Below are positions 11,589 through 51,119 of a stretch of DNA of 64,000 bases, in pieces. The notes beneath the pieces are model-generated. The model saw nothing but the letters and a program-made list of their open reading frames with translations. It did not search any database and was not told where the DNA came from. Position numbers and translations under genes: made by a program. Positions within the stretch are counted from its first letter, which is position 1; the number at the start of each line of letters is the position of its first letter. The stretch comes from Parahoeflea alexandrii. GTDB taxonomy: Bacteria > Pseudomonadota > Alphaproteobacteria > Rhizobiales > Rhizobiaceae. The stretch is from NCBI RefSeq assembly GCF_027214025.1, contig NZ_JAPWHB010000005.1, positions 444,575 to 508,574 of the forward strand, in the 5' to 3' direction.

Positions 11589-13238
11589 CTATTGCGCCGC
11601 CGGATACCAGTAGCGCGCGTTGGCCTCTCCCCGGATTATCCTGACATGCTGGTTGGCGAAGACCCGGTAGGGATGGCTCCACTCGCCGTCCGGCCATTGA
11701 ACCCGGATGGTCGCGCGCTCCGATACCCCGAGTCCGACATGGACGAAGCCGGTCCGCCCGGAGGCATGTCCGCCACCAATCTGGATACGGCGGGTCTGGG
11801 TGCGCGTCCCGGTGCGAACAGAGATCAGCGATCCCACCGCGGCAGGATTGATCTTGCCGTTGTCGAGTTCGATCTTCACCCAGTTGCCCAGCGGTCTGTG
11901 CCCCCAGTCCGTTGCGGCGCCGAGGTTCCGGAACAGGCTTGCCGGATGCTCGCGATTGACCACAAGCAGGTCGAGCATGCCGTCCATGTTGAAGTCCTCG
12001 ACGACTGCGCCGCGGCCACGCGTGTTCAACGCGATCCCGGCCTCTGCGCCCTTTTCATGGAAGGTGTCGTCGAAACCGCCAAGCAGCAGATTGTCCGGAT
12101 CGTAGCTGGCAAAATCCGGCATCGCCTGCACATTCCCCTTGGCGATGAAGAGGTCGGTCATGGTGTCATTGTTGAAATCGGCAAACGCGCTGTGCCAGCC
12201 GGTCGAGGGTTTCGGATCTCCGCCTGAATAGGGCCGGTGCGCGGTGGCGCCCTTTTCGAAGGCGATGTCGCGGTAGGTCGGCCTGTCTTCGCCGGCCTCT
12301 TCGTCGAGCTTCTGCAGCTTCGTGTCGCCCATCGAGGTCAGCGCGTATTCGGGCAGGCCGTCGGCGTCGAAATCGGTTTCGGCGATTCCCATTCCCCAGA
12401 CGGTCAGCCGCTGCCATCCCTGCGATGCGGTGTAGAGCCGCGGGGCGCGTCCCTCCGACATCTCCCACAATTGCTCCTCACCTCCGCGGTAATACTGCCG
12501 GTCGTTGGTAATCCTGAGATCCGGCTGGCCGGTGCGGTTCCAGTCGGTGAACAACAGCGACAGGGCGCAGTAGCCGGGTTCGAGGGTGAGGGGGTCCGAG
12601 TAGTCCGGCGCATCGCCAGCCCGGGGGCGAAGCAACTGATTGGGCTCGCAGGTTCCAAACGGCGTCCCCGGCGCCGAGCGGTCGACATAATTGCCGATCG
12701 CGATGGTCGGGAATCTGTTGCCTTTTTCCCATATCGCCGACATGGCGGTCGACCAGGCGCGCCCGCCATCGATCGAGAAGCTGCGGTTGGCTTTTTCGAA
12801 TTGGCAATCGGGTCCGCCTTTGAGCACGAGGTTGCGGCCGAGCCGCAACAGCACGAGGTCCATGTGCCGGTCGTTGTCGATATCGAGCGGATAGGCGCCC
12901 AGCACGCCGGTGAGATCCTCGGGCTTCAGTCCGGTATCGAGAGGCCTGAAGTCCAGCGCGCCGCCGGTCTGGCTCTCATTGACAAAGAACTTGGCCGGAC
13001 CTGATCCGCCGGCAATCAGCAAGTCCGGAAGGCGGTCGCCGTTGCAATCAAAACTCGCGGCGCCGCCGCCGACAAAAAATTCCCACCCGCCGGTGTAGCT
13101 TTGATCGATGCCTGCAGTTGTCGCCTCCTCGTGCAGGATCGGGACATCTGCGGAAAAGCCGGTCTCTGCGTTAACGCCATGGCCTGACGTGACCAACCAG
13201 AGCGCGCCAAACGCAAGGAGTGAAAGCAATTTCATCAT
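11589..13238 (-). CDS. Secreted FG-GAP/VCBS repeat protein with ASPIC/UnbV domain
   Basis: The 549-residue exported protein has a signal peptide (about 1-24). The body is built of FG-GAP/VCBS beta-propeller repeats with Asp-rich loops such as DFNNDTMTD and DFNMDGMLD. A C-terminal ASPIC/UnbV module (about 455-545) follows, ending near VRIIRG. This architecture is that of bacterial CRTAC1-like proteins, whose biochemical role is largely unknown. Tandem ATGs at 13238 and 13235 overlap the TGA of the di-haem oxidoreductase gene (ATGATGA), so the two are translationally coupled and probably act together in the periplasm. Confidence 0.85.
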   Translation of the reverse strand: MMKLLSLLAFGALWLVTSGHGVNAETGFSADVPILHEEATTAGIDQSYTGGWEFFVGGGAASFDCNGDRLPDLLIAGGSGPAKFFVNESQTGGALDFRPLDTGLKPEDLTGVLGAYPLDIDNDRHMDLVLLRLGRNLVLKGGPDCQFEKANRSFSIDGGRAWSTAMSAIWEKGNRFPTIAIGNYVDRSAPGTPFGTCEPNQLLRPRAGDAPDYSDPLTLEPGYCALSLLFTDWNRTGQPDLRITNDRQYYRGGEEQLWEMSEGRAPRLYTASQGWQRLTVWGMGIAETDFDADGLPEYALTSMGDTKLQKLDEEAGEDRPTYRDIAFEKGATAHRPYSGGDPKPSTGWHSAFADFNNDTMTDLFIAKGNVQAMPDFASYDPDNLLLGGFDDTFHEKGAEAGIALNTRGRGAVVEDFNMDGMLDLLVVNREHPASLFRNLGAATDWGHRPLGNWVKIELDNGKINPAAVGSLISVRTGTRTQTRRIQIGGGHASGRTGFVHVGLGVSERATIRVQWPDGEWSHPYRVFANQHVRIIRGEANARYWYPAAQ

Positions 13239-14677
13239 GGGACGATCACCAGGGTCTTGAGGAACGCGATCAGGGCGGATTTCTCCGCGTCCGATGCTGC
13301 CGCATAGGCATCGCGTGCCTCCCGGCCATTGCCGCCATGCGCAAGAATGATCTCGTCGAGGGTGCTGAAATCGTTGCGATGGCCAAAGGGCTGGGTCGAG
13401 CCCACGCCCCAGAGCTCTGCGGTCTGAAAGATATTGCGGTCGACAAACCGTTGCGACAGCAGTTCGTTGCCAAGGGCATCGATCTGGTTGTCGGTCATGG
13501 CGTGTCGCTTGAGGTCACCGTAAAGCGGCACCAGAACCCGTCCCTTCTCGTCGCGGGGCAGGGAGCCGGCCCAGTCCAGCAGCGCGATGTCGTAGACTGC
13601 CTTTGAGGAGACCTGCCGCTCGTTGAGCGTGCCTGCCAGATCGAACGGGCCGGGGTCGGCAAACGAGAGGCTTTCAAGCGGCAGGGCAGGGCGGTGGCAA
13701 ACCGTACAGCCGAAGTCGGTGAAGCTTGCTTCGCCGCGATCTGCAGCTTCGGCCCAACCTGAGGCTTCGGGGATCATCTGGACCGGAGCCGGCAGCGTTG
13801 CCTGCCATGCCACCATGGCGGAAATGTCGGCCGCGGAGATCTCCCCGGACTTGCCATCGCCATCAAAGTCGTCCGTTCCGGTCCAGCGTGCGCCGAAGCG
13901 TTCGTCGGCCTGCATGCCATGGTGCTGGTTGAGCGCGTTGACCGTGAACTGCCTGAGCGAGGTCATCACGCCTTTCTGGCTGAACGGCCGGATCACAAGG
14001 TCCGTATCGACGCCATCGAGTTCATCCAGGTTGACCGAGCCATCAGGTTCGGCGGTTATGTATCCGAAATCCACCCCCTTGGCTTCAAGCGGCAGCCGCA
14101 CCGCCGATCCTGCCGCCCGCGCCTGTGAAAGTGCCTTGCTGCGGACCGATTGCAGCTCAAGGCTCATTTCCCGCGCCAGCAGTTCGACCAGACCGGCGCC
14201 GAAGAGATGGTTGGTGCCGCGCTCACTGGAAAACTGTGGGTCGAGCGAATCGAAGTCGGCACTTTCGAACCCCTCGGAGGCAAACACGTTGGCGACAAAG
14301 TCGCCGGCGCCGCCGATGGCTGGCTGGTTGTGGCAGGCAGCGCAAGATCCGGCATCCGGGCCGGCGGTCCTGAAGAACACCTGCTCGCGCGGATGCTTGC
14401 GCCGCGTCGGGTCGATGGCCTGCGTTGCCCGCGGCCGGCCGACACCATCCAGTGTGGTGAAATGCGCGCCAAACAATGCCTCACCGTTCGTAATCAGTGT
14501 CTCGAGGTCGTCCTTTGACAGGACACCTGCAGGCATCTCCGCGATCGCACCCAGCGCCTGGGTGCGTTCAGCCCACGGCTCATCGGCTAGGGCAGGCGAC
14601 GCCAACCCGCACATCACCAGCGCCGCAATCGATCCGAAGCGGCGCCTCCGTCGCCCCTTGTGTGATGAAGTCATCAT
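13235..14677 (-). CDS. Periplasmic di-haem oxidoreductase (DHOR/DUF1111 type)
   Basis: The 480-residue exported c-type cytochrome has a basic N-terminus and signal sequence (about 1-31) and two haem-binding motifs, CAACH (112-116) and CTVCH (324-328). An EF-hand-like loop, DDFDGDGKSGEIS (about 269-281), may bind Ca2+ between the haems. Length and motif spacing fit the putative di-haem peroxidase/thiol oxidoreductase family PF06537. Reaction and electron partner are unknown. Its ATG at 14677 has GGGAGGAA upstream and overlaps the stop of the ROK regulator gene. Being co-transcribed with a sugar-type repressor is unusual. Confidence 0.87.
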   Translation of the reverse strand: MMTSSHKGRRRRRFGSIAALVMCGLASPALADEPWAERTQALGAIAEMPAGVLSKDDLETLITNGEALFGAHFTTLDGVGRPRATQAIDPTRRKHPREQVFFRTAGPDAGSCAACHNQPAIGGAGDFVANVFASEGFESADFDSLDPQFSSERGTNHLFGAGLVELLAREMSLELQSVRSKALSQARAAGSAVRLPLEAKGVDFGYITAEPDGSVNLDELDGVDTDLVIRPFSQKGVMTSLRQFTVNALNQHHGMQADERFGARWTGTDDFDGDGKSGEISAADISAMVAWQATLPAPVQMIPEASGWAEAADRGEASFTDFGCTVCHRPALPLESLSFADPGPFDLAGTLNERQVSSKAVYDIALLDWAGSLPRDEKGRVLVPLYGDLKRHAMTDNQIDALGNELLSQRFVDRNIFQTAELWGVGSTQPFGHRNDFSTLDEIILAHGGNGREARDAYAAASDAEKSALIAFLKTLVIVP

Positions 14678-17377: not shown

Positions 17378-18679
17378 ATGACCGATACGCCAACTGCTGC
17401 GAGCTCGCCGCCTAAGCCGCGAACTTTTTTCTCTGCCCTGGAAATTGATACACGTCTGCTCGGAATGATCGGCGCTTTCGTGGTGATCTGCCTTGTCTTC
17501 AATTTCCTCACAGACGGGCGTTTCATGACGCCGCGAAATCTCTTCAATCTGACGATCCAGACCGCCTCGGTCGCCATCATGGCGACGGGCATGGTGTTCG
17601 TCATTGTCACGCGCAATATCGATTTGTCGGTCGGCTCGCTGCTGGCGACCTGTTCGGCGATGATGGCGATGACCCAGACATGGTTCGTTCCCGACTGGCT
17701 AGGCTTCGGGCTCAACAACCCCGCCACCATGCCCATTGCAGTTGTTGTCGGCATCCTGACTGGCTTGCTCATCGGCGCCTTTCAGGGCTGGCTGATCGGC
17801 TACCTGGCCATACCGGCCTTCATTGTCACACTTGGCGGCTTTCTGATCTGGCGCAACGTTGCCTGGCACCTGACCAAGGGGCAGACCATCGGGCCGCTCG
17901 ACGAAAATTTTCAGCTGTTCGGAGGCATCAACGGCACGCTCGGCGAGACCTGGAGCTGGATCTTTGCAGCCCTTGCCATAGCGGGCTCGTTATACGCCCT
18001 GATCCAGTCGCGCCGCACGAAGCTGGCACACGAGTTCCCGGTGAAGCCGGTTTGGGCCGAAGCTCTCATCGGCGCGATCATCGCGGCAACCATTGTCGGT
18101 TTTGTTGCGATCCTCAATGCCTATGAAATCCCCACGGCGCGATTGCAGCGCATCTACGAGGCGCGCGGGGAGGTGCTGCCGGAAGGCCTCATTGAGGGGT
18201 ATGGCATCCCGATTTCGGTGCTGCTGCTGATCCTGATCGTCATTGCCATGACCATTGTTGCGCGGCGCACCCGGCTCGGACGCTATATCTTTGCCACCGG
18301 CGGCAATCCGGAAGCCGCGGCGCTGGCGGGCATCAACACCCGTTTGCTGACGGTCAAGGTCTTCGCCATCATGGGCATGCTCTGCGCCGTCGCAGCCATT
18401 GTCGCCTCATCCCGCCAGACCTTTCACTCCAACGATATCGGAACGCTGGACGAATTGCGGGTGATTGCAGCGGCGGTGATCGGCGGCACGGCGCTTGCCG
18501 GCGGCATGGGCACAATCTACGGAGCGGTTCTCGGCGCGTTGATCATGCAGAGCCTGCAGTCCGGCATGGCTATGGTCGGCGTCGACGCACCCTACCAGAA
18601 CATGGTGGTCGGCTCCGTGCTTGTTCTCGCCGTCTTCATCGATATCCTCTACCGCCGACGGACGGGAGACAAGACATGA
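17378..18679 (+). CDS. xylH: Xylose-type ABC transporter permease
   Basis: The 433-residue inner-membrane permease is of the BPD_transp_2 family. About ten hydrophobic segments are visible, with the family signature GNPEAAALAGINTRLLTVKV near residue 310. Length and the long central loop (about 200-280) match XylH rather than the shorter RbsC. The ATG is preceded by GGAAGACGG. Its stop overlaps the xylG start (ATGA). Confidence 0.92.
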   Translation: MTDTPTAASSPPKPRTFFSALEIDTRLLGMIGAFVVICLVFNFLTDGRFMTPRNLFNLTIQTASVAIMATGMVFVIVTRNIDLSVGSLLATCSAMMAMTQTWFVPDWLGFGLNNPATMPIAVVVGILTGLLIGAFQGWLIGYLAIPAFIVTLGGFLIWRNVAWHLTKGQTIGPLDENFQLFGGINGTLGETWSWIFAALAIAGSLYALIQSRRTKLAHEFPVKPVWAEALIGAIIAATIVGFVAILNAYEIPTARLQRIYEARGEVLPEGLIEGYGIPISVLLLILIVIAMTIVARRTRLGRYIFATGGNPEAAALAGINTRLLTVKVFAIMGMLCAVAAIVASSRQTFHSNDIGTLDELRVIAAAVIGGTALAGGMGTIYGAVLGALIMQSLQSGMAMVGVDAPYQNMVVGSVLVLAVFIDILYRRRTGDKT

Positions 18680-19452
18680 CCGCACCGCTAGTTGAAATGC
18701 GTGACATGGTGAAGTCCTTCGGCGGCATCAAGGCTGTCGATCACGTCACCATCGATCTGTATCCGGGTGAAGTGGTTGGCGTTCTCGGCCACAACGGTGC
18801 CGGCAAATCGGTGCTGATGAAGATGCTCTCGGGCGCGCTGCAGCGCGATGGCGGCGAGATCTATATCAATGGCGAGAAGGCAACGATCAACAATCCGCGC
18901 GACGCGCGCAATTACAAGATCGAGACCATCTACCAGTATCTCGCCCTTGCCGACAATCTGGATGCGGCCTCCAACCTGTTCCTCGGACGCGAGTTGATGG
19001 GCCCGACCGGTTTTGTCGACGACGCCCAGATGGAAGCCGAAACCCGCAAGATCCTTGCCCGTCTCAATCCTAACTTCCGGCGCTTCCACACGCCGGTGGC
19101 AGGGCTGTCGGGCGGACAAAGGCAATCGGTGGCTATCGCCCGCGCGGTCTACTTCAACGCCAAGATCCTGATCATGGACGAACCGACTGCGGCTCTGGGT
19201 GTTCAGGAAACGCGGATGGTTGCCGAGCTGATCGAACAGTTGAAGTCGGAGGGCATCGGCATTTTCCTGATCGACCACGACATTCACCAGGTCAAGATGC
19301 TGTGCGACCGGGCGAATGTGATGAAGAACGGCCAGCTCGTGGGCACTGTCAAGGTCGACGAGGTCAGCGAGGATGACATGCTGGGCATGATCATCGCCGG
19401 CAAATGTCCGCCCAATGCGATACCGGGACCAGGGGCCCTGCAGACCGCCTGA
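18676..19452 (+). CDS. xylG: Single-domain sugar ABC transporter ATPase (XylG-like)
   Basis: The 258-residue ATPase has Walker A GHNGAGKSVLMKML (near residue 35), signature LSGGQRQSVAIARAV (near 140) and Walker B ILIMDEPTAAL. E. coli XylG, RbsA and MglA are about 500 residues with two nucleotide-binding domains; this protein has only one, like FrcA and other alphaproteobacterial versions, so it should act as a homodimer. The Walker A motif ends in GKSV rather than GKST. It is coupled to xylH by ATGA and followed by a terminator. Confidence 0.88.
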   Translation: MTAPLVEMRDMVKSFGGIKAVDHVTIDLYPGEVVGVLGHNGAGKSVLMKMLSGALQRDGGEIYINGEKATINNPRDARNYKIETIYQYLALADNLDAASNLFLGRELMGPTGFVDDAQMEAETRKILARLNPNFRRFHTPVAGLSGGQRQSVAIARAVYFNAKILIMDEPTAALGVQETRMVAELIEQLKSEGIGIFLIDHDIHQVKMLCDRANVMKNGQLVGTVKVDEVSEDDMLGMIIAGKCPPNAIPGPGALQTA

Positions 19453-19461
19453 CACAACGAG

Positions 19462-19488
19462 AACCGGGGCCTTGCGCCCCGGTTTTTT
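19462..19488 (+). terminator. Rho-independent terminator after xylG
   Basis: A perfect 9-bp stem (AACCGGGGC and GCCCCGGTT) with a 5-nt loop is followed by a T-run reaching 19488, 10 bases after the xylG stop. Confidence 0.9.
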
Positions 19489-19592: not shown

Positions 19593-19646
19593 TTTTTTCG
19601 AATTTTCCTATTGCAATGCAGCATAAACTGTTCCATATATCAATCA

Positions 19647-19793
19647 ACGCCACGCCGAACTCCTCCTCCTCCCAATTCGGCATGGCAGTAGTCGGGGCGA
19701 TAAAGGCCGGGATCCTCCTCCCAAGCACCGGTCCGAACGTCACGACGAAGTACAAACGCCTGTCAGGTTTTGCCTGGCAGGCGTTTTGTTTTT
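19647..19793 (+). ncRNA. Anti-Shine-Dalgarno small RNA, alpha-r14/cuckoo-like
   Basis: Three hairpins in a row form a probable trans-acting RNA. Hairpin 1 (stem 19654-19659 with 19676-19681) exposes TCCTCCTCCTCCC. Hairpin 2 (19705-19710 with 19728-19733) exposes CCTCCTCCC. Hairpin 3 (19754-19767 with 19773-19787) is a rho-independent terminator followed by T-rich sequence. Two loops carrying the anti-SD motif CCUCCUCCC are the hallmark of the alpha-r14 family of rhizobial RNAs and of cuckoo RNAs. The start is approximate: TTGCAA (19611-19616) and TATATC (19636-19641) suggest initiation near 19647. There is no convincing open frame here. Confidence 0.78.
19754..19793 (+). terminator. Terminator hairpin of the small RNA
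   Basis: The arms AAACGCCTGTCAGG and CCTGGCAGGCGTTT pair with one internal mismatch around a TTTTG loop, followed by a T-rich tract. It forms the 3' end of the small RNA upstream of the response-regulator gene. Confidence 0.85.
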
Positions 19794-19889
19794 CACCTGC
19801 TGCAAAGTGGCGCTTGGCCATTCACGACCAGCACGGTGGTTGCATTGGCGGGTGCGCCTGTTAATCGTTGCATGAGGGTGGAGACAGGC

Positions 19890-21281
19890 ATGGCAATCGG
19901 CAAACAGAAAGCAATCGACGATACCGAGGAAGTCAGCGACTTCGGTCCGCTGCTGGCGCGTGCGTCCATACTTGTGGTCGATGACGAACCGGGAATGCGG
20001 AATTTCCTTCTGCGCACCATCGGCCCGCGCTGCCAGAAAATCGATGAAGCGGGCGATGTGCGCGAAGCCGAGGCCAAGCTCGATGCCCACCAGTATGACA
20101 TCGTCATTCTCGACAATGTCATGCCGGGCCGCAACGGTGTCGACTGGCTGGCCGAGCAGCGCGACGTCGGATTTTTCTCCGACGCGATCCTGATGACCGC
20201 ATTCGCCGATCTGGAAACCGCCATTCAGGCGCTGCGCGCCGGCGCCATCGATTTTGTGCTCAAGCCCTTTCGATCAAACCAGATCCTCAACGCGATCTCC
20301 CGTTGCCTCGAACGCCGGCGGCTGCAGCGTGAGAACCACGTCCTGCGCTACGAGCTTACTGTTGCGTCAGACCACCTCCTGCTTCGCGACCGTCTGATTG
20401 GCGGGTCACCGCTGATCCAGAGAGTAAGGGAAGCAATCTCACGGGTCTCTGCAGTCCCGTCATCAGTGCTCATCTGCGGGGAATCGGGCACAGGAAAAGA
20501 AGTGGCCGCGCGCTCGATCCATGAATTGTCCGACCGGGCCGGCAAGCCGTTCGTGCCGGTCAATTGCGCCGCCATACCGGCAGACATGATCGAAGCCGAA
20601 CTCTTCGGCCATGTCCGCGGTGCTTTCACCGGGGCCAATTCATCGCGCGAGGGTCTTTTCCTGCATGCCCATGGCGGAACGCTGTTCCTGGACGAAATCG
20701 GCGACATGCCATTGCCGGTACAGGCCAAGATGCTGCGCGCCATCGAGGAGCGCAAGGTGCGACCGGTCGGCTCGGAACGGGAAGCTTCGGTCGATCTGCG
20801 GTTCGTCTTCGCAACCAACGCCGATCTCGAGGAAAAGGTTGCTGACGGCAGTTTCCGATCCGACCTGTTCTACCGCATCAATGTCATGCGCATCGATATG
20901 CCTCGCCTGGCCGAACGTGATGATGATGTGATCGATCTGGCAAGGCTTTTCGTCGAGAGACTGTCTCAGCAGCTTGGCCTGCCAAAGGTCGAGCCGGGAG
21001 AGGCGGCCATCCAGGCGATGCGTGACTATTCCTGGCCGGGCAATGTCCGTGAACTGCGCAATCTGGTCGAGCGTTCACTCATACTCGGCGGGTTCCCGGA
21101 CTCGATTGGGCCCGGGTCTGGCTTGGCCGAGAGCGCAGGCGGTACCCTTGCGGAGGTCGAGCGGAGGCACATCCTTGCGGTGCTCGAGGCTTCAGGCGGC
21201 AACCAGGCGGAAGCGGCGCGCACGCTCGGGATCTCGCGCAAGACGATCGAACGAAAATTGGCAGCCTGGAAAAGCAAGTGA
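19890..21281 (+). CDS. Sigma54-dependent response regulator (NtrC/DctD family)
   Basis: The 463-residue activator has three parts. A receiver domain (about 25-145) has phospho-acceptor Asp75 in VILDNVMPG. An AAA+ domain (about 165-395) has Walker A GESGTGKE (near 197) and the sigma54-contact motif GAFTGA (near 244). A C-terminal Fis-type helix-turn-helix (about 420-460) follows. ATG 19890 has GGTGGAGACAGG upstream; an ATG at 19872 is possible. The stop overlaps the kinase GTG (GTGA). The sigma54 promoter at 23403-23417 in front of the transporter gene is its probable target. Confidence 0.93.
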   Translation: MAIGKQKAIDDTEEVSDFGPLLARASILVVDDEPGMRNFLLRTIGPRCQKIDEAGDVREAEAKLDAHQYDIVILDNVMPGRNGVDWLAEQRDVGFFSDAILMTAFADLETAIQALRAGAIDFVLKPFRSNQILNAISRCLERRRLQRENHVLRYELTVASDHLLLRDRLIGGSPLIQRVREAISRVSAVPSSVLICGESGTGKEVAARSIHELSDRAGKPFVPVNCAAIPADMIEAELFGHVRGAFTGANSSREGLFLHAHGGTLFLDEIGDMPLPVQAKMLRAIEERKVRPVGSEREASVDLRFVFATNADLEEKVADGSFRSDLFYRINVMRIDMPRLAERDDDVIDLARLFVERLSQQLGLPKVEPGEAAIQAMRDYSWPGNVRELRNLVERSLILGGFPDSIGPGSGLAESAGGTLAEVERRHILAVLEASGGNQAEAARTLGISRKTIERKLAAWKSK

Positions 21282-23290
21282 TCGAGGACCGGCAAGCCGC
21301 GCCCGCAGCATGGTCGATCAGGCATCGCCTGCTGGCCATCGCCCTGCTGCCGATGCTTGTCATTCTTCCGCTGCTGCTGGGCGCGACCATGTGGCGCTGG
21401 AACTCGAAGTTCGATGCGGCGCTGATTTCCAAGGTCAATGGCGATCTCACCATCGCTCATCAGTACCTGACCCAGCTGCTCGTCAACACCGGCGACCACA
21501 TCACGGCGCTCGGGGACTCCATTCCGTTTGCCGAAAGCCTGGAATCCGCCGATCCGGAAGCCGTTGCCGGATTGCTGTCAGACGCTGCGATGAAGCGCAG
21601 TCTGGACTTCCTCTATCTGGCAGACAGCGATGGCCGTCTTCTCGCGGCAGCGGAAGGACGCGGTCCGCGGCTCACTGATGTTGCAGAACCGGTGTTCGCC
21701 TCCGCCCGCAACGGCACGCCGGGGACAGCGATCGACGTGCTCACCTCCGGTCAACTGGCGGCAATCGATCCGGCGCTGGCAGAGCGCGCGGCCTTCTCCC
21801 TGATTCCCACTCCCAATGCGGCGCCGAAGGCGACTTCTGAAAGCACCAGTGGAATGGTGGTGCATTCCGCCAGTCCCGTCACATTGCCGGGGGGCAGCCG
21901 GGGCGTACTGGTTGGCGGCGTGCTGCTCAACCGCAACCTCGATTTCATCGATACCATCAATGACCTGGTTTATCAGGAGGCAAGCCTGCCCGAAGGCAGC
22001 CGCGGAACGGCGACGCTTTTCCTCGATGACGTGCGGGTGAGCACCAATGTACGGCTCTTCGAAGGCAGCCGTGCGCTCGGCACTCGGGTTTCCGATGTGG
22101 TGCGCGCGACTGTTCTGGGAGAGGGGCGAACCTGGCTGGACCGGGCCTTTGTCGTCAACGACTGGTACATCTCCGCCTACGAGCCGATCGTCGACAGCCA
22201 TGGAGAGCGGGTCGGCATGCTCTATGTCGGTTTCCTGGAATCACCGTTTCGCCAGTCCAAGCTGGCGACGCTCGTTGCCGTTTGCGCCGCCTTTCTTGCC
22301 GTCACCGTATTCAGTATCCCTCTGTTCCTCAGATGGGCGGGCAGCATTTTCAGGCCGCTTGAGAAAATCGTCGAGACCATAGGCGCGGTCGAGAACGGCG
22401 ACATGGGCGCCCGAACAGGAACACGGCCGGCTAACGACGAGATCGGCCGCGTGGCAACGCATCTTGATGGTCTGCTGGACCGGATCGAGCAGCGCGACGC
22501 CGAGCTTCGCGCTTTCAATGAGGAACTCAACGACCGGGTCGAGGCGCGGACCTCGGAACTGAAGGCCACCAACAAGCAGCTCGAAGAGATGACGCGGCAA
22601 CTGGTCATGTCGGAGAAGCTCGCGGCAATCGGCGAGATCACGGCAAGCGTCGCCCATGAGATCAACAATCCCATCGCGGTCATCCAGGGTAATCTCGAAG
22701 TGCTGCGGGCCATCATCGGCGACCGGGCGAAAGACGCTGAAACCGAGTTGCGGCTGATCGACGAGCAGACCGATCGGGTCAGCCAGATCGTGACCCGCTT
22801 GCTCCAGTTCGCCCGCCCGGACGAATATTCCGGCTCCGAGGCGTCGAGCCTGCCCGGAGAAGCCGTCAAGAGCTGCATGCCGCTGATCCGGCACCTGCTC
22901 AACAAGAACGAGATCAGCTTCCACTTCGAGGATCGCGCCTCTTTTCAGGTCGCAATCAGCAGGACGGAATTGCAGCAGGTGCTGATCAACCTGATGGTCA
23001 ACGCCATTCACGCCATGCCAGAGGGCGGCCAGCTGACCGTGCTCATAGAGGATTGCAGGCTTGCGGGACGCGACGGCGTCGAAATCACCGTCTCAGACAC
23101 CGGGGGCGGCATTCAGGCGACGGAACTTCAGCGGATATTCGACCCGTTCTACACCACGAAAAAAGGCAAGGGCACCGGCCTTGGCCTGTCCATCACGCAA
23201 ATGCTGGTGATGCGGCAGGGCGGAACCATTTCGGTTGAAAGCGAACCCGGCCATGGGACCCGGTTTCTGATCAGGCTGCCCACCGTGTGA
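21278..23290 (+). CDS. Membrane sensor histidine kinase with periplasmic cache-type domain
   Basis: This 670-residue kinase has TM1 at about 19-37, a large periplasmic sensing region (about 40-325, double-cache-like), TM2 at about 328-350, a HAMP domain (about 348-402) and a coiled stretch. HisKA follows with the phospho-acceptor His near 460 in VAHEINNP, then HATPase_c with N-box LINLMVNAIHAM, DTGGGI and GTGLGLS. Architecture and partner resemble DctB/DctD. The GTG start overlaps the stop of the response-regulator gene. The ligand is unknown but may be the substrate of the OFA transporter encoded next. Confidence 0.92.
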   Translation: MIEDRQAAPAAWSIRHRLLAIALLPMLVILPLLLGATMWRWNSKFDAALISKVNGDLTIAHQYLTQLLVNTGDHITALGDSIPFAESLESADPEAVAGLLSDAAMKRSLDFLYLADSDGRLLAAAEGRGPRLTDVAEPVFASARNGTPGTAIDVLTSGQLAAIDPALAERAAFSLIPTPNAAPKATSESTSGMVVHSASPVTLPGGSRGVLVGGVLLNRNLDFIDTINDLVYQEASLPEGSRGTATLFLDDVRVSTNVRLFEGSRALGTRVSDVVRATVLGEGRTWLDRAFVVNDWYISAYEPIVDSHGERVGMLYVGFLESPFRQSKLATLVAVCAAFLAVTVFSIPLFLRWAGSIFRPLEKIVETIGAVENGDMGARTGTRPANDEIGRVATHLDGLLDRIEQRDAELRAFNEELNDRVEARTSELKATNKQLEEMTRQLVMSEKLAAIGEITASVAHEINNPIAVIQGNLEVLRAIIGDRAKDAETELRLIDEQTDRVSQIVTRLLQFARPDEYSGSEASSLPGEAVKSCMPLIRHLLNKNEISFHFEDRASFQVAISRTELQQVLINLMVNAIHAMPEGGQLTVLIEDCRLAGRDGVEITVSDTGGGIQATELQRIFDPFYTTKKGKGTGLGLSITQMLVMRQGGTISVESEPGHGTRFLIRLPTV

Positions 23291-49301: not shown

Positions 49302-50183
49302 ATGCTCTACGACATCAAGCTTGGCATCAATTACATCTTTCAGGCGCCGGCTGCCGGCGCCCGCCAGATCTTGCATGCCATGCCGTTGACCATCCCTGGC
49401 CGCCAGCGCCTGATCGCCGGCAGCATCGATATCGATCCGGCGCCGGCCATGCGGCGCGAGCGCAGCGACTTTTTCGGCAACCGCTTGACCGAGATCGCGT
49501 TCAACGAACCTCACAGCAAGGTTGTGATCGGGCTCAAGGCAAGGGTGGAAGTGACGGGCGGAGCCGAACCGGCGGCAGCCTCGGTCGACCTCCGGGATCT
49601 GGCGGGGGCGCTGGATGCCGAGAGGGATCTCGGCCCCCGCTCGCCGCTGCATTTCCTGCCGGCGTCTCCCTACGCCAGGCCCGATGCGGCGATTGCCGAT
49701 TGGGCACTGACGCAGGCCCGGCCCGAACAGCCGGTCGGGGAGATTGTTGAGGATCTCGGGCTGGCGTTGCATCGGGAGATGCGGTTCGATGCCGAAGCGA
49801 CAACCGTCGACACGCCTGCCGCCGAGGCCTTCGCCGCACGGCATGGGGTCTGCCAGGATTTCACCCACATCATGATCATTGCGCTCAGAGCCCTTGCCAT
49901 CCCGGCCGGCTATGTCAGCGGTTATCTCAGAACCCTGCCGCCGCCCGGACAGGAGCGTCTCGAGGGTGCGGACGCCATGCATGCCTGGGTGTCGGCCTGG
50001 TGCGGTCCCGGTGTCGGCTGGGTCGAGTATGATCCCACCAACGCGGTATTTGCTGGAACCGATCACATCGTGGTCGCCTACGGACGTGACTATTCTGATG
50101 TCGCGCCGGTGCGCGGCGCCATGCGCACTGCCGGCGGGCAGACCAGCAATCAGTCGGTCGATGTGGCGCCGGTCGGATCGTAG
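49302..50183 (+). CDS. Transglutaminase family protein
   Basis: The 293-residue cytoplasmic papain-like hydrolase has an N-terminal beta domain (about 1-100) and a core with catalytic Cys184 (GVCQDFTH), His227 (MHAWVSAW) and Asp244 (EYDPTN). ATG 49302 is the usual family start (LYDIKLGINY); GTG 49296, overlapping the upstream stop as GTGA, is an alternative. It is the third member of the ATP-grasp/alpha-E/transglutaminase set and is probably the peptidase partner. No Anbu proteasome-like gene follows. Confidence 0.9.
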   Translation: MLYDIKLGINYIFQAPAAGARQILHAMPLTIPGRQRLIAGSIDIDPAPAMRRERSDFFGNRLTEIAFNEPHSKVVIGLKARVEVTGGAEPAAASVDLRDLAGALDAERDLGPRSPLHFLPASPYARPDAAIADWALTQARPEQPVGEIVEDLGLALHREMRFDAEATTVDTPAAEAFAARHGVCQDFTHIMIIALRALAIPAGYVSGYLRTLPPPGQERLEGADAMHAWVSAWCGPGVGWVEYDPTNAVFAGTDHIVVAYGRDYSDVAPVRGAMRTAGGQTSNQSVDVAPVGS

Positions 50184-50198
50184 AATCGGAGCCGCGGT

Positions 50199-51119
50199 TC
50201 AGCGTCCGCGGATGCGCGGATCGAGCGCGTCGCGAAGTCCGTCGCCGATATAGTTGACGCTCAGCACGGTCAGCGAGATCGCCAGGCCCGGCCAGAACAC
50301 CCGCTCCGGATATTGCTGCAGGTAGTCGATCGCATCGAACAACAGCCGTCCCCAGGTCGGGAAATCCGGCGGGAAGCCTAGACCGAGGAACGACAGCGCC
50401 GATTCGGTGATGATCGCGGTGGCGATCCCCAGCGTGGCCGAGACCATGATCGGCGAAAGCACGTTGGGAAGGATGTGGCGCAGGATCATGCGCCGGGACG
50501 GCGTGCCGATAGACCGCGCAGCGAGCACGAATTCCCGTTCCTTCAGCGCCAGCACCTCGCCGCGGACGATGCGGGCGGTCTGCATCCAGCTTGTCACGCC
50601 GATGGCGGACACGATCAGGATGAAGGTGCCCATTTCCGGTCCGAAGCTGCGCGACAGGGTCTCGCGGAACAGCATCACCATGACCAGCAGAAGCGGCAGC
50701 AGCGGCAGTGCCAGGAACAGGTCCGTCAGCCCCATCAGCAGACCGTCAAGCTTGCGGAAAAATCCGGCCACCACGCCGATCAGGGTTCCAAGCAGGACGC
50801 TGATCAGCATTGCGGTGAGTCCGACTGCGATCGAGACCTGTCCGCCTGCCATCATCCGCGCCAGGATGTCCCGGCCCAGCTGATCCGTGCCGAACGGGTG
50901 AGCCAGGCTGGCTCCTGAGTTTCGGGCGCGGATGTCGATGAAGGTCGGCTCGATGGTCCACAGCAGCGGGCCGATGGTCACGGCCAGCACGATGAACAGG
51001 AACACCGCCGCGCCGAACAGAGCGCCCTTGTGTGTCTTGAACTGGTCCCAGACGTCCCACCATTGCGAGCGTCCCGACGTGTCGGCCTTTGCCGGTTCCA
51101 GCATGGGAGCGTCAGTCAT
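50199..51119 (-). CDS. Peptide ABC transporter permease (DppC/OppC type)
   Basis: The 306-residue inner-membrane permease has an N-terminal helix at GALFGAAVFLFIVLAVTIGP and the signature FVLAARSIGTPSRRMILRHI near residue 195. Start ATG 51119 overlaps the end of the DppB-type gene by 8 bases. It is the last gene of the peptide importer operon and is convergent with the transglutaminase gene. Confidence 0.93.
   Translation of the reverse strand: MTDAPMLEPAKADTSGRSQWWDVWDQFKTHKGALFGAAVFLFIVLAVTIGPLLWTIEPTFIDIRARNSGASLAHPFGTDQLGRDILARMMAGGQVSIAVGLTAMLISVLLGTLIGVVAGFFRKLDGLLMGLTDLFLALPLLPLLLVMVMLFRETLSRSFGPEMGTFILIVSAIGVTSWMQTARIVRGEVLALKEREFVLAARSIGTPSRRMILRHILPNVLSPIMVSATLGIATAIITESALSFLGLGFPPDFPTWGRLLFDAIDYLQQYPERVFWPGLAISLTVLSVNYIGDGLRDALDPRIRGR

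Follow-up and report, generated by a model that had tools for sequence, protein, structure and literature searches.

Cuckoo RNAs are said to consist, following Reinkensmeier and Giegerich in 2015, of hairpins that expose a C/U-rich anti-Shine-Dalgarno (anti-SD) motif together with a terminator hairpin. Loops of a C/U-rich, anti-SD-like kind are also carried by the small RNAs CcsR1-4 of Rhodobacter sphaeroides. The latter are reported to be made from the 3' UTR of ccaF1 (PMC8625941). The alpha-r14 family (RF02344), to which NfeR1 belongs, is defined by three hairpins, each with CCUCCUCCC unpaired. The seeds of NfeR1 silence mRNAs, according to its authors by covering the ribosome-binding site, and the nfeR1 gene has an LsrB site, TGCA-N6-GCAT, at about -72 to -57 (as reported in PMC10746234).

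A different control is reported for MmgR (alpha-r8) of Sinorhizobium meliloti, an sRNA that is repressed by AniA and whose gene contains a PhaR site (PMC12542648). The S. meliloti PhaR motif is given there as WNWD2NYGCRNYGCRNH2WNW, and PhaR is described as a repressor of phasin genes that acts without PHB and is drawn to granules once PHB forms. Among the matches listed from the open-access literature, in the portions of text available, PhaR control was named for no sRNA other than MmgR, and none of the titles concerned sRNAs of Hoeflea.

A conserved RNA gene with two anti-SD hairpins behind xylG

The window analysed here (G000:C50:444575-508574), by which we mean the whole stretch of 64,000 nucleotides, comes from the 5.54 Mb draft genome of Parahoeflea alexandrii, grouped below with Hoeflea; of the six named contigs nearest to it by XylG, five are from Hoeflea and one from Oricola. 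At positions 19644 to about 19792 of the + strand it contains a small-RNA gene made of two anti-SD hairpins followed by a terminator. As a gene it is well supported by its fold, covariation, loop conservation, promoter elements and terminator. The 5' end was inferred from the -10 element (about 19644-19646) and the 3' end from the terminator. The RNA, its parts and its neighbours are as follows.

18676-19452, + strand: xylG-like ABC ATPase, last gene of xylFHG; adjoins the RNA on its 5' side in 16 of the 17 genomes
19611-19624, + strand: putative PhaR/AniA-type box TTGCAATGCAGCAT, overlapping the -35 element (TTGCAA, 19611-19616); from conservation and motif fit
19633-19638, + strand: -10 element CCATAT; its distance from TTGCAA is 16 nt in all 17 genomes
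19644-19792, + strand: small RNA; from a 17-genome alignment, consensus fold and covariation
19649-19686, + strand: SL1, with CUCCUCCUCCUCCC in its loop and the anti-SD motif at 19665-19673; from the fold and changes on both sides in 5 of 10 pairs
19691-19746, + strand: SL2, an outer and an inner stem with the anti-SD motif at 19714-19722 in the loop; from fold, conservation and pair count
19754-19794, + strand: SL3, intrinsic terminator with a stem at 19754-19786 followed by TGTTTTTC; changes on both sides in 4 of 15 pairs
19890-21281, + strand: NtrC-like sigma-54 response regulator, with 19890 taken as its start; 3' neighbour in the window only
21278-23290, + strand: sensor histidine kinase

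In the predicted fold (z = -3.99, with none of 200 shuffles as stable) two hairpins of the RNA hold CCUCCUCCC unpaired. The two copies of CCTCCTCCC, at 19665-19673 and 19714-19722, are on the same strand with their starts separated by 49 nt. Each lies within a hairpin loop, and the terminator-like hairpin with its T run stands 3' of both. Both motifs are unpaired in all 17 genomes with a probability of 0.91-1.00, and the loop of the SL3 terminator is without CCUCCUCCC or any anti-SD motif in all 17 aligned sequences. Two copies of CCTCCTCCC in 64 kb are not rare by themselves, since at least two were found in 14 of 100 shuffles.

A blastn search recovered the 201-nt region in 17 of 18 Hoeflea genomes, our own included, and in none of 43 others. 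The sole genus member without a match (G008) is a 75% complete assembly in 820 contigs, and the missing match may be an assembly effect. Both anti-SD motifs were retained in every one of the 17 aligned genomes. The core of SL2 (19707-19731, 25 nt) is 100% identical in all of them, and identity in the 17-sequence alignment is 99% in the SL1 loop, 99% at the start of the RNA (TCAACGCC) and 71% in the linker.

The consensus structure (RNAalifold and pair count, 17 sequences) leaves 98.3% of cells paired. Changes on both sides were found in 13 of 37 pairs, compared with a shuffle mean of 4.7 (0 of 500 shuffles as high) and with 1 to 6 pairs in slid controls; note that related sequences can exceed shuffles, and that a consensus-derived structure favours the slid control. 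The outer stem of SL2 changes on both sides in four of its seven pairs and the inner stem in none of five; the latter hardly varies among the 17 sequences and has no covariation support of its own. Given four separate helices and their compensated changes, a structured RNA is much the likeliest reading of the locus.

Two hairpins with an exposed loop motif and a terminator hairpin, lying between xylG and a two-component system, had been proposed in the earlier note. All of these are present: xylG ends at 19452, and the NtrC-like regulator and histidine kinase follow 3' of the RNA. Covariance support in relatives, which had been set as a test beforehand, and conservation of the loops were both found. 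An opposite-strand ORF after GGGAGGAGGA was dropped as a gene because its length varies (2 to 61 codons) and its starts differ; no such ORF is conserved.

A putative PhaR operator in the core promoter

The best conserved stretch upstream of the RNA is TATTGCAATGCAGCAT (19610-19624), with 98% mean column identity in the 17 genomes. At a fixed distance from this box stands CATAT, which is 98% conserved, compared with 67% in the spacer and 62% further upstream; the spacing of box and -10 element is fixed in 17 of 17 genomes. The RNA is predicted to have its own sigma-70-type promoter with a PhaR (AniA) operator within the -35/spacer region, a proposal that we judge, jointly with the mechanism set out below, to be rather more probable than its negation. 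A PhaR/AniA-type box apparently built into the -35/spacer goes beyond what the earlier note had described.

Within the box, TGCAATGCA agrees with the core of the PhaR motif reported for S. meliloti; there is one mismatch to the published 21-position motif, and the reported sites of phaP2 (TTTTATTGCATTGCACACTGA), SMa1961 and mmgR look like it (PMC12542648). The 21-position consensus with one mismatch occurs 8 times in the window against 6.1 expected, which is not significant, and it was dropped as stand-alone evidence. Because the degenerate consensus is too common alone, the PhaR claim rests on conservation and layout. In the own genome, TTGCANYGCANNAW has 18 sites, compared with 6 for the reversed pattern. 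A number of them lie inside long open frames, and for this reason a composite with the -10 element, TTGCANYGCA-N14-ATAT, was used instead. The composite was written after seeing the RNA promoter and the promoter of the own-genome phasin (PF09361), so that these two matches are not independent.

The composite has 21 matches in the 18 Hoeflea genomes and its reversed pattern none. Seventeen of these matches lie at window-type RNAs, and all four others lie before phasin-like ORFs; a phasin match is thus limited to 4 of the 18 genomes and lacking in 14. Being related by descent, the 17 RNA promoters amount to a single case. Independent support for the predicted operator comes from phasins in the rest of the family, which are marked by this layout too. 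Across the family the composite matches 247 of 394 genomes and the reversed pattern 8 (table read by eye). Of 30 fetched loci, which all come from outside Hoeflea and are not a random draw, 24 lead into a homologue of the own-genome phasin. Six of the 30 miss a phasin: four have an ending other than TATAT, and at one (L290) a phasin of another type may follow. The RNA promoter thus resembles phasin (phaP) promoters in having TTGCANYGCA fused to the -35 element and the same spacing to the -10. However, the latter drive a protein gene and all 24 end in TATAT, whereas the window RNA has CATAT. No phasin follows at the two fetched family loci with CATAT (L266, L268), and CCTCCTCCC is absent from the 250 nt downstream at all 30 fetched loci.

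The own genome encodes PhaR (PF07879, 105 bits), and the operator sequence of the PhaR (AniA) regulon is present in the RNA promoter in 17 of 17 genomes, at sequence level only. The box also resembles the nfeR1 LsrB site, with N5 instead of N6; LsrB was given low weight as its reader because position and spacing differ. Elsewhere in the own genome (L143, G000:C31:508441), a PhaR-like box, TTGCACTGCAGCAA, stands a short way upstream of an ORF that carries a biotin-carboxylase N domain and looks like a pyruvate carboxylase.

Relationship to alpha-r14 and cuckoo RNAs

No Rfam family matches in the window at gathering score. The best match by E-value is alpha-r14, with 33.6 bits (E = 1.2e-4) against a gathering cut-off of 58.8, and the window-type RNA scores 26.9-45.6 bits with RF02344 in the 17 genomes that have it, all below the cut-off. 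These scores bear on an alternative in which the RNA is a diverged copy of alpha-r14 (NfeR1) that is under LsrB/NtrC control like nfeR1 and redundant with the canonical one. RF02344 is indeed its best Rfam match. However, while the window-type RNA stays under the cut-off in 17 of 17 genomes, a separate canonical alpha-r14 exceeds it in 17 of 18 Hoeflea genomes, our own included; in the remaining one (G007, 77% complete) it is perhaps missing through incomplete assembly.

The assignment to alpha-r14 made in the earlier note, which had named an Infernal search with the Rfam model as a check, was rejected for two reasons: the score is below 58.8 bits, and there are two rather than three anti-SD loops, CCUCCUCCC being found in two of the three hairpins. 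What stood of that proposal is the cuckoo-type anti-SD small RNA as a gene, with its fold, covariation and loops. Motif-exposing hairpins and a terminator hairpin, the marks of cuckoo RNAs, are both present.

A covariance model built from the 17 RNA sequences, which match it by construction, was run over 394 family genomes. Scores were 142-179 bits in the 8 Hoeflea genomes of that sample and did not exceed 54.2 bits in the other 386, 172 of which match at E <= 0.01. The best 22 outside matches that were read are compact and alpha-r14/cuckoo-like, with three (15 RNAs), two (6) or four (1) exact copies of CCTCCTCCC. Two of them (L201 and L212), from one genus outside Hoeflea, are two-motif cuckoo-like RNAs in which the terminator loop is without the motif, an independent two-loop form in that genus. 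Because these two have it, the two-loop form with a plain terminator is not unique to Hoeflea. The distinct parts of the Hoeflea RNA are its sequence, its long SL2 and its predicted promoter. Five of the 22 outside RNAs have a loose PhaR-like core in the 110 nt before the first motif, with the strict TGCATTGCA only in L204; given these loose cores, a link to PhaR may not be unique to Hoeflea.

The 172 matching genomes, the likeness of the 22 RNAs to alpha-r14 and cuckoo RNAs, and the six RNAs with only two exact copies of CCTCCTCCC, L201 and L212 being two-loop, all speak for the diverged copy, against which stands the fall in model score outside the genus. The promoter box likewise cuts both ways: it resembles the reported LsrB site (PMC10746234), but it lies at -35 rather than -72, and box and spacing match phasin promoters. 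On balance we regard descent as a redundant alpha-r14 copy as unlikely. The RNA shares with alpha-r14/NfeR1 the hairpin loops with CCUCCUCCC, a terminator hairpin and a presumed trans-acting anti-SD design, and differs in having two anti-SD loops, a longer SL2 with an outer stem and a putative PhaR-type box in the core promoter, where nfeR1 has its LsrB site further upstream. By the criteria tested it falls outside alpha-r14; it belongs to the wider cuckoo/alpha-r14 kind, as a relative specific to the genus.

The canonical alpha-r14 of the own genome (L138:1501-2310; G000:C21, about 49722-50530) is flanked by DUF1127 ORFs, one of 46 aa on its 5' side and another on its 3' side, and the PhaR-like TTGCACTGCACAAA precedes both ORFs; PhaR may touch this RNA too. 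Its position behind a DUF1127 ORF is like that reported for the CcsR RNAs after ccaF1 (PMC8625941). The window RNA shares the C/U-rich anti-SD-like loops of CcsR1-4, but it has promoter elements of its own in place of an origin in the ccaF1 3' UTR, and no DUF1127 ORF was seen 5' of it, between xylG and the RNA, when the sequence was read by eye.

Candidate targets

We infer by analogy that the loops would pair with ribosome-binding sites. In a loose best-start duplex scan of the window, 24 of 44 ORFs reached -12 kcal/mol or better. In the own genome, the target scan covered 30 of 31 CCTCCTCCC places (the last being without a locus), five of which lie inside the two sRNA genes. With size limits chosen after the list was seen, 3 of the 25 GGGAGGAGG sites outside these genes are followed, after 3-7 nt, by the ATG of a long ORF. 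Of the three candidates, one is a GMC oxidoreductase and one a DctP-type solute-binding protein; the third has a start that looks signal-like and no Pfam hit. Five more of the 25 sites have a start codon 4-14 nt away, but these are short, non-ATG or distant.

The leader of xylF, with its GGGAGG site, forms a predicted duplex with the RNA at -18.7 kcal/mol. Values range from -13.4 to -22.4 kcal/mol in the 16 Hoeflea genomes with both RNA and xylF, and from -7.0 to -27.9 kcal/mol in loci where no such RNA was seen (one of which, L133, is a contig cut inside xylG and uninformative). Since an equally good site occurs in many of these loci, xylF was dropped as a special target. The phasin SD (AAGGAGA) is a poor partner for the loops.

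The loops could instead act as a sponge or decoy, binding other RNAs or a protein (e.g., DUF1127/CcaF1-like) rather than the SD sites of mRNAs. All 25 nt of the SL2 core, stem included, are invariant, beyond the needs of an 8-9 nt seed, and DUF1127 ORFs flank the canonical alpha-r14 in the own genome; however, the loop is complementary to strong SD sites, like that of NfeR1, for which silencing is reported (PMC10746234), and we consider a decoy function quite improbable.

Genomic neighbourhood

In 16 of 17 genomes, 195-220 nt separate the end of xylG from the RNA, an arrangement that could point to a cis element, either the 3' end of the xyl operon or a leader of the response regulator, rather than to a trans-acting RNA. 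Against this, a G+C-rich palindrome with six T (19463-19488; read by eye and unlisted in the terminator scan) stands behind xylG itself, and the RNA has conserved promoter elements and a terminator of its own. Moreover, tblastn did not detect the response regulator in the other 16 genomes within the roughly 1.5 kb fetched 3' of the RNA, and one genome (G009) keeps the RNA without xylG beside it, among other genes. From their sequence, we take these neighbours to encode a SelO-like protein and a pilus-type protein. A cis element is very improbable on these grounds.

The XylG of the window has 258 aa, about half the length of sugar ATPase models. Its counterparts next to the RNA share only 69-70% identity with it in 6 Hoeflea genomes and 89-97% in 9 others. 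In an Oricola locus whose XylG is 94% identical (L056), CCTCCTCCC did not occur in the 3 kb to each side. Elsewhere in the window (11589-14677, - strand), a protein matching di-haem oxidoreductases is encoded together with an FG-GAP/UnbV-ASPIC repeat protein, and a GGGAGGAA site precedes the start of the former gene.

The mmgR gene was located through its published PhaR site. With a query that included promoter and RNA, a homologue was found in 16 of 18 Hoeflea genomes, our own included (E <= 5.2e-10), where it occupies another locus with a PhaR-type box (G000:C41:590804-590914; L221:270-460). That the window RNA is itself the Hoeflea version of MmgR (alpha-r8), the PHB-linked sRNA, is scarcely credible and largely refuted by this co-occurrence: the two share a putative AniA/PhaR-type promoter box and, as reported for MmgR, an anti-SD sequence, but MmgR is shorter (77 nt) and different in sequence, and the strong mmgR match is the separate locus.

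Proposed role in carbon storage

The reading that we favour, and hold to be fairly probable from loop sequence and promoter layout, is that of a trans-acting anti-SD RNA under PhaR control that would block mRNAs with GGGAGGA sites. A free-standing RNA of about 148 nt would present two CCUCCUCCC seeds unpaired, and these would pair with GGGAGGA-type SD sites and block the initiation of translation, as the analogy with NfeR1 and the conservation of the loops suggest. With its operator inside the -35/spacer, as in phasin promoters, the RNA promoter should follow the same PhaR logic. PhaR would then repress the RNA gene without PHB, and release would come when PhaR moves to PHB granules. The released RNA would dampen the synthesis of proteins with strong SD sites, perhaps of solute-uptake systems. 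It would so act as a brake on carbon uptake during storage, which is the weakest step of the scheme.

The phasin-like layout of the promoter suggests that the RNA adjusts protein synthesis during carbon storage. In its fullest form the proposal is of a carbon-storage-sensing, cuckoo-type sRNA that came, in a single genus, under the control of a phasin-type PhaR promoter and would quench the translation of uptake systems when PHB granules titrate PhaR, alongside MmgR and possibly the DUF1127-linked alpha-r14. We advance this wider picture tentatively, giving it slightly less than even credence. If true, a generic RNA that blocks ribosome sites would be tied to the storage signal through a known repressor, and an old RNA design may have been re-wired by a change of promoter.
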